Assembly: GCA_014360205.1 (NCBI GenBank)
Contig: JACIXZ010000001.1
Span: 152,137 to 216,136, forward strand
From: Tissierellales bacterium
Lineage (GTDB): Bacteria > Bacillota > Clostridia > Tissierellales > Tissierellaceae
DNA length: 64,000 bases
Reading direction: 5' to 3'
Made by a program: the position numbers and the translations under genes. The notes beneath the pieces were generated by a model that was not told where the DNA came from, did no database searches, and was given only the letters and a program-made list of their open reading frames with translations. Every line of letters begins with the position of its first letter. The first letter of the stretch is position 1. This document shows positions 231 to 934 of this stretch, in pieces.

Positions 231-277
231 ATGTCTACCCAGCATGGGTATAAATATTAAAAAGGAGGATTAGATTT

Positions 278-934
278 ATGAAGAAATTAAAAATAGATTT
301 TTTTCATGATGTATTATGAGCTTGGTGCTATGCACTATCGCCTAGGTTGAGGCAATTAAGAAATGAATTTATGGAAGAAGGCATAGAAATCGAGATATAT
401 CATCATAGTTTTGCTTTAGCAAAAGAAAAAATAAATCTAGCACAGATGTTTGGTGACAAAGAAAGGGCAAAGAAAGAGATATTAAACCATTGGAAAGCAG
501 CAAATGAGAATTCTGATGAAAAAAACATCAATTATGAATTAATGGCTACACGAACACATGATTATCCATATTCTATGCCAGGACTTATAGCCTGTGAAGC
601 TGCAGCGATAATGGGTGGAGAAGAAGCTCATTGGGATTATTTTGACAGAATTCAAAAAGCTCATTTGACTGAATGCTTAGATATAACACAAGAAGACGTC
701 CAGCTAATGTGTGCAAGAGATATTGGACTAGATGAAGAAAAGTTTAAACAGTTAATCTCAGATGAAAACACTATAAAATTAGTTGAAAAGGATTTAAAAC
801 TAGCTAGAGAATGGGGGATAACAGCAGTTCCAAGTTTAGTTTTAAATGAAAGATATCTAATTTCTGGTGCTCAGAAAAAAGAATATTTGAAGCAACAATT
901 CTTAAAAGTTGTTAATGAAGAAGATATTTTATAG
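278..934 (+). CDS. DsbA/FrnE-family thioredoxin-fold oxidoreductase, probable selenoprotein (UxxC)
   Basis: Reading from the ATG at 278, which has a good AAAGGAGG eight bases upstream, gives MKKLKIDFFHDVL, then an in-frame TGA at 317-319, then AWCYALSPR and an uninterrupted frame to the TAG at 934. In this family the same place holds the CxxC redox motif, so TGA replaces the first, nucleophilic cysteine: U14-A-W-C17. The length (218 residues), the helical insert domain and the cis-proline loop (TAVPS, Pro185) fit the DsbA-like FrnE/COG2761 group of dithiol-disulfide oxidoreductases. A hairpin placed like a bacterial SECIS follows the TGA. The frame downstream alone would start at TTG 347 and lack the active site and first beta strand, so an automatic call there is probably wrong. 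The alternative is a one-base nonsense mutation of TGT/TGC. The substrate is unknown. The family is clear; selenocysteine is inferred. Confidence 0.85.
317..357 (+). promoter_or_regulatory. Candidate bacterial SECIS element (UGA plus hairpin)
   Basis: After the TGA at 317-319 lies a hairpin with stem GCCT (340-343) / AGGC (350-353) and apical loop AGGTTG (344-349). It extends weakly below a C-A mismatch through T338-A355 and A337-T356. The loop lies about 25 bases after the UGA. It opens with A-G-G-U, like the AGGUCU loop of E. coli fdhF, where G and U contact SelB. A second possible hairpin (TGGTGC/GCACTA, 323-334) lies between. Position and loop fit bacterial SECIS rules; function is inferred. 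Confidence 0.6.

Follow-up and report, generated by a model that had tools for sequence, protein, structure and literature searches.

A DsbA-like thiol-disulfide oxidoreductase of Soehngenia with a predicted selenocysteine in its active site

Gene and reading frame

The window, that is, the whole stretch of 64,000 nucleotides analysed here, carries on its forward strand a dsbA-like gene at positions 278..934. The frame is open for all 218 codons apart from a TGA at 317..319 (codon 14); after this TGA there are 204 sense codons, followed by the stop codon TAG at 932-934. A Shine-Dalgarno sequence, AGGAGG, can be read directly on the same strand at 263..268, 9 nt 5' of the ATG at 278. The original prediction had described both the intact frame beyond the TGA and a good ribosome site for the upstream ATG, and both were found. 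When the TGA is read as selenocysteine (Sec, U), the protein begins MKKLKIDFFHDVLUAWCYALSPRLRQL, and the first cysteine of the CxxC motif is replaced to give UAWC (U14-A-W-C17), a UxxC motif. As had also been predicted, a standard ORF search, in which TGA is a stop, returned 347-934 as the sole ORF, with the start codon TTG at 347 and with the active site missing.

In the profile search, the protein was assigned to the Pfam family DSBA (PF01323) with 77.8 bits against the curated cut-off of 25.6 (1.2e-21), and it was the only member of PF01323 found in its own genome; no NCBIfam model scored above its cut-off. The best solved relative by sequence (phmmer) was FrnE of D. radiodurans, whose CxxC aligned with the UxxC, and U14 fell on the first Cys of that motif. 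The claim that the in-frame TGA sits exactly at this cysteine was thus borne out. The only Cys residues of the protein are 17, 106, 133 and 145. According to the translation and the alignment, Cys17 (326..328, forward strand) is the predicted resolving cysteine of UAWC. Pro185 (830..832, forward strand), which varies little or not at all across the subfamily, is the probable cis-proline facing the active site. At the N-terminus, MKKLKIDFFHDV, no signal peptide was visible by eye.

Downstream of the gene, at 1021-1180 of the window, there is a short coding remnant that is apparently decayed. The matching spot in Soehngenia longivitae is longer, and its tail is similar, by eye, to the last part of a methyl-accepting chemotaxis protein.

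Selenocysteine machinery of the genome

All four genes of the Sec system, selA, selB, selC and selD, are present in the genome. In its own assembly, selA (604 bits) sits directly between selD and selB, and the tRNA-Sec with the anticodon UCA lies downstream of selB, so the original prediction passed its own first check, the search for this machinery. The SelD frame of the same genome has a TGA within SGUAAK (L009:468-470) and the GrdA frame (L125:1501-1935) has one in-frame TGA; SelD and GrdA are therefore further likely selenoproteins, and UGA seems to be decoded as Sec at other places in the genome too.

Near-cognate reading of UGA and insertion of Cys at Sec codons are known to occur. For this reason, the UGA at 317-319 might mostly be read as another residue, either as Trp by near-cognate decoding or as Cys via the Sec machinery. 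We believe that this is very improbable, because the Sec system of the genome is complete and the codon stands at the site of the catalytic chalcogen. Cys in place of Sec is possible as a minor product, but it would be unexpected as the main decoding.

A putative SECIS hairpin in the coding sequence

The putative SECIS hairpin, GCCU-AGGUUG-AGGC, was located on the forward strand at 340..353, with its stem at 340-343/350-353 and its loop at 344-349, so that 24 nt separate the UGA from the start of the loop. The bSECIS model allows a loop of 3-9 nt, a stem of 4-16 bp, a G in the first two loop positions, a spacing of 16-37 nt and an energy of no more than -7.5 kcal/mol (PMC13188914). The loop of 6 nt, the stem of 4 bp, the G at loop position 2 and the spacing of 24 all fall within these rules, but the energy of the hairpin alone is -5.6 kcal/mol, short of the limit of -7.5. 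The SECIS-like hairpin with an AGGU loop that had been claimed at this place therefore holds in its loop, stem, G position and spacing, and falls short in its energy when taken alone. The region 317-362 folded with a second hairpin at -11.1 kcal/mol (z -0.43 against shuffled sequences).

Such a hairpin would seldom arise by chance. When the region was randomly recoded synonymously with the window's own codon usage, a comparable hairpin with a GGU loop appeared in 0.16% of the draws; the AGGUNN hexaloop came up in 0.02%. A comparable GGU-loop hairpin followed 0.37% of the codons in the window's ORFs, and one of the 83 Cys homologues had a comparable hairpin, there with another loop. The codons that build it are rare in the genome, where TCG makes up 6% of the Ser codons and AGG 16% of the Arg codons. 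S. longivitae retains the hairpin even where the residue differs, in the loop (Leu24 to Phe). Between the two Soehngenia species, about 5 of the 13 synonymous sites over the hairpin were changed compared with 66 of 103 (P = 0.07), and same-codon conservation over the SECIS codons was not significant (P 0.12-0.27). These comparisons point towards nucleotide constraint over the hairpin but are no more than suggestive, neither being significant. At a permissive threshold, Rfam gave no SECIS match at the site; because Rfam likewise missed the GrdA UGA region of the same genome, this negative result is uninformative.

Conservation within Soehngenia

The gene of Soehngenia longivitae 1933P is 80% identical at the protein level, has TGA at the same codon and likewise lies between a dicarboxylate symporter and an AIR-synthase-like gene. 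GGAGGAGG is also found upstream of its ATG. Over the whole frame, dN/dS between the two copies was 0.08 at a dS of 1.30. Among codons 1-13, which lie 5' of the TGA, four sites differ and all four changes are synonymous, and codons 1-23 encode the same protein sequence in both species despite synonymous changes.

In a third Soehngenia genome (G001; L016:1400-1725), the copy at the same locus is broken: the frame shifts at the TGA, and a large stretch within the gene is deleted. The SECIS-like nucleotides can still be read in this broken copy, and selA has been retained in the genome although its dsbA-like copy is broken. The broken copy indicates that the gene is dispensable in the genus.

These data bear on whether our gene is itself a recent pseudogene, in which the TGA would be a nonsense mutation and the frame downstream would simply be undecayed so far. 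The congener whose copy at this locus is truly broken, and a nonsense change from TGG to TGA in another member of the subfamily (L127), both show that such events happen. However, the TGA of this gene is shared by two species at a synonymous divergence of 1.3, selection acts over the whole frame, every change upstream of the TGA is synonymous, and the TGA sits on the codon of the catalytic Cys. With the TGA conserved and dN/dS so low, the pseudogene reading is strongly disfavoured, and we would give it hardly any weight. The comparison with S. longivitae shows purifying selection on the gene; decay exists in the genus, not in this gene. The original prediction thus also passed the check for random decay among homologues, with one congener copy decayed and the S. 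longivitae copy preserved.

It is also highly unlikely that translation begins downstream at TTG 347 to yield a DsbA-like protein without an active site: TTG 347 opens the sole standard ORF, but this start would leave the predicted fold without its strand 1 and without its active site, the Shine-Dalgarno sequence serves ATG 278, and the protein identity over codons 1-23 would be left unexplained.

Homologues and origin of the selenocysteine state

The subfamily alignment contained 84 members, two of them from Soehngenia. A single-sequence scan of genome contigs gave no matches, whereas the alignment-based scan did find homologues. Outside Soehngenia, the residue at the position of U14 is Cys in 80 of 82 members and Ser in the other two, and both Soehngenia proteins have U, so the alignment of homologues that had been proposed as a check sets the TGA opposite Cys almost throughout. 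The subfamily shares the motif FFHDV-x-[U/C]xxC, with Sec found only in Soehngenia; among the sampled genomes (391 from the class and 398 from the phylum) there was no further Sec case. Both Ser-type members (SxxC; L075 and L082), in which Ser stands for the first active-site Cys, come from one Immundisolibacteraceae MAG. L127, from a genome of another class (G877), was considered as a second Sec case and rejected, for its TGA replaces a TGG (Trp to stop) away from the active site; it is an ordinary nonsense mutation or a sequencing error.

The Sec machinery, the Cys homologues and the purifying selection together support the selenocysteine reading first proposed for this locus, and we believe that the TGA, a stop codon in the standard code, is almost certainly read as selenocysteine.

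On the tree, a single change accounts for the U state. The two Soehngenia proteins cluster with LCAWCYA proteins from Bacteroidota, Ignavibacteriota, Coprothermobacter and one archaeal MAG (support 86/89, not starred), and the FPMS-type proteins of other Tissierellaceae stand apart from this pair; the exact sister group is moderately supported. Since Sec occurs in Soehngenia alone within a tree of Cys proteins, and the pair has such distant neighbours, the simplest reading of the topology is that the gene was acquired horizontally and that Cys then gave way to Sec, with both the transfer and the direction of this change read from the tree. In this study, we speculated that the ancestor of Soehngenia gained a Cys-type (LCAWCYA) gene horizontally, that the catalytic Cys codon became UGA, that the unusual TCG/AGG/AGG codons downstream came to form a minimal SECIS hairpin, and that the gene has since been lost in one of the three species. 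We consider this history somewhat better than an even bet. If such a lineage-specific switch took place, the selenoprotein would be young, and the origin of a SECIS within coding DNA could be dated and tested against the Cys relatives. The genus offers a natural comparison for this purpose, with Sec in two Soehngenia, a broken copy in the third and Cys in nearly all other relatives found.

Predicted fold and mechanism

The AlphaFold2 model, built from a 34-sequence alignment, had a pLDDT of 94.5 and a pTM of 0.92. The closest solved folds were 2in3 (Z 25.7), YjbH (24.4), D. radiodurans FrnE (DrFrnE, 23.7) and DsbM (21.4). In the predicted fold, U14 lies after the first strand and just before helix 15-33, which is the standard active-site position of the thioredoxin fold, and Pro185 comes just ahead of strand 186-189, in the manner of a cis-Pro. 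The role of the cis-Pro is known from thioredoxin-fold proteins generally.

We therefore consider it very probable that the gene encodes a cytoplasmic thiol-disulfide oxidoreductase of the DsbA superfamily (FrnE/DsbM/YjbH-like), with Sec as the predicted nucleophile of U14-A-W-C17 and with the UGA decoded via the hairpin 340-353. In the proposed mechanism, SelB-GTP-Sec-tRNA(Sec), guided by this hairpin, would decode the UGA at 317-319 and insert Sec. The selenolate of U14 would then attack substrate disulfides or other oxidised thiols, and C17 would resolve the mixed selenosulfide. A thioredoxin/thioredoxin reductase-type system or low-molecular-weight thiols would return the enzyme to its reduced form.

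DrFrnE has been described as a cytoplasmic disulfide reductase (PMC8945050) and DsbM as a cytosolic disulfide reductase (title of 5hfg). Because no export signal was seen by eye and these relatives are described in this way, a cytoplasmic selenol-based disulfide reductase is favoured; that the enzyme works as a reductase is an inference, as are its electron donor and its substrate. Many FrnE proteins, though not all, have a C-terminal CX4C motif, and DrFrnE is one that does (PMC8945050). This motif was absent when the sequence of the U14 protein was checked, so an internal regeneration step in the style of DrFrnE is not expected. We considered whether the protein is an FrnE as defined strictly by CX4C, and we do not claim this; the "FrnE-type" of the original prediction stands for the fold and the cytoplasmic class, and does not extend to the C-terminal CX4C of many FrnE proteins.

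Comparison with known systems

DsbA-like UxxC selenoproteins have been catalogued in several surveys. For example, a study of the Sargasso Sea in 2005 reported nine sequences of COG2761 (PMC1088965), such proteins appeared in genomes in 2006 (PMC1794560), and "DsbA 1" and "DsbA 2" selenoproteins were named in 2008 (PMC2398784). They were listed again in 2022, and a list of 2026 gives "DsbA-like protein form 1, PF01323, UxxC" among predicted families whose functions are largely uncharacterised (PMC13188914). A trend from Cys to Sec in thiol oxidoreductases has been described as well (PMC1794560, PMC13188914). The original prediction was right that surveys know Sec-containing DsbA-like proteins; its suggestion that this member may be poorly described was only partly right, since COG2761 UxxC selenoproteins have been on record from 2005 onwards. 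Soehngenia and selenoproteins were not found mentioned together in our literature search. The gene is a well-supported addition to the DsbA-like UxxC selenoproteins catalogued since 2005, and it is neither a new family nor a new mechanism. What is gained is a well-supported selenoprotein that an ORF search with TGA as a stop shortens.

Like the COG2761/PF01323 UxxC family, the gene combines a DSBA domain with Sec in the first position of UxxC; a SECIS-like hairpin downstream and widespread Cys homologues are shared as well. By its sequence, it lies in the FFHDV-x-[U/C]xxC subfamily, in which Sec was found only in Soehngenia. Other Tissierellales have FSDxAUPxC frames (L023-L026, L029, L030, L034, L036), which are also DsbA-like UxxC proteins with TGA in place of the first Cys codon and AGGU a short way downstream. 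However, they are about 22-29% identical to the U14 protein and have another motif context, and in L029, L030, L034 and L036 the AGGUA loop lies 20 nt after the UGA compared with 24 here. These frames form a separate clade, in which Sec looks common.

Among solved proteins, 2in3, a putative disulfide isomerase of Nitrosomonas, is the closest in fold and 18% identical. YjbH/SpxH, which acts with Spx, is near-closest and 21% identical; its likeness to the U14 protein is stated for the fold. FrnE of D. radiodurans and DsbM of Pseudomonas share the fold and a cytosolic thioredoxin-fold active site with the U14 protein, but they have Cys where it has Sec. With the present gene, a predicted Sec occupies the catalytic position in the cytoplasmic FrnE/DsbM-like group. 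The less ordinary part is that, within the subfamily, the Sec state seems to be restricted to the genus Soehngenia, while its relatives use Cys.
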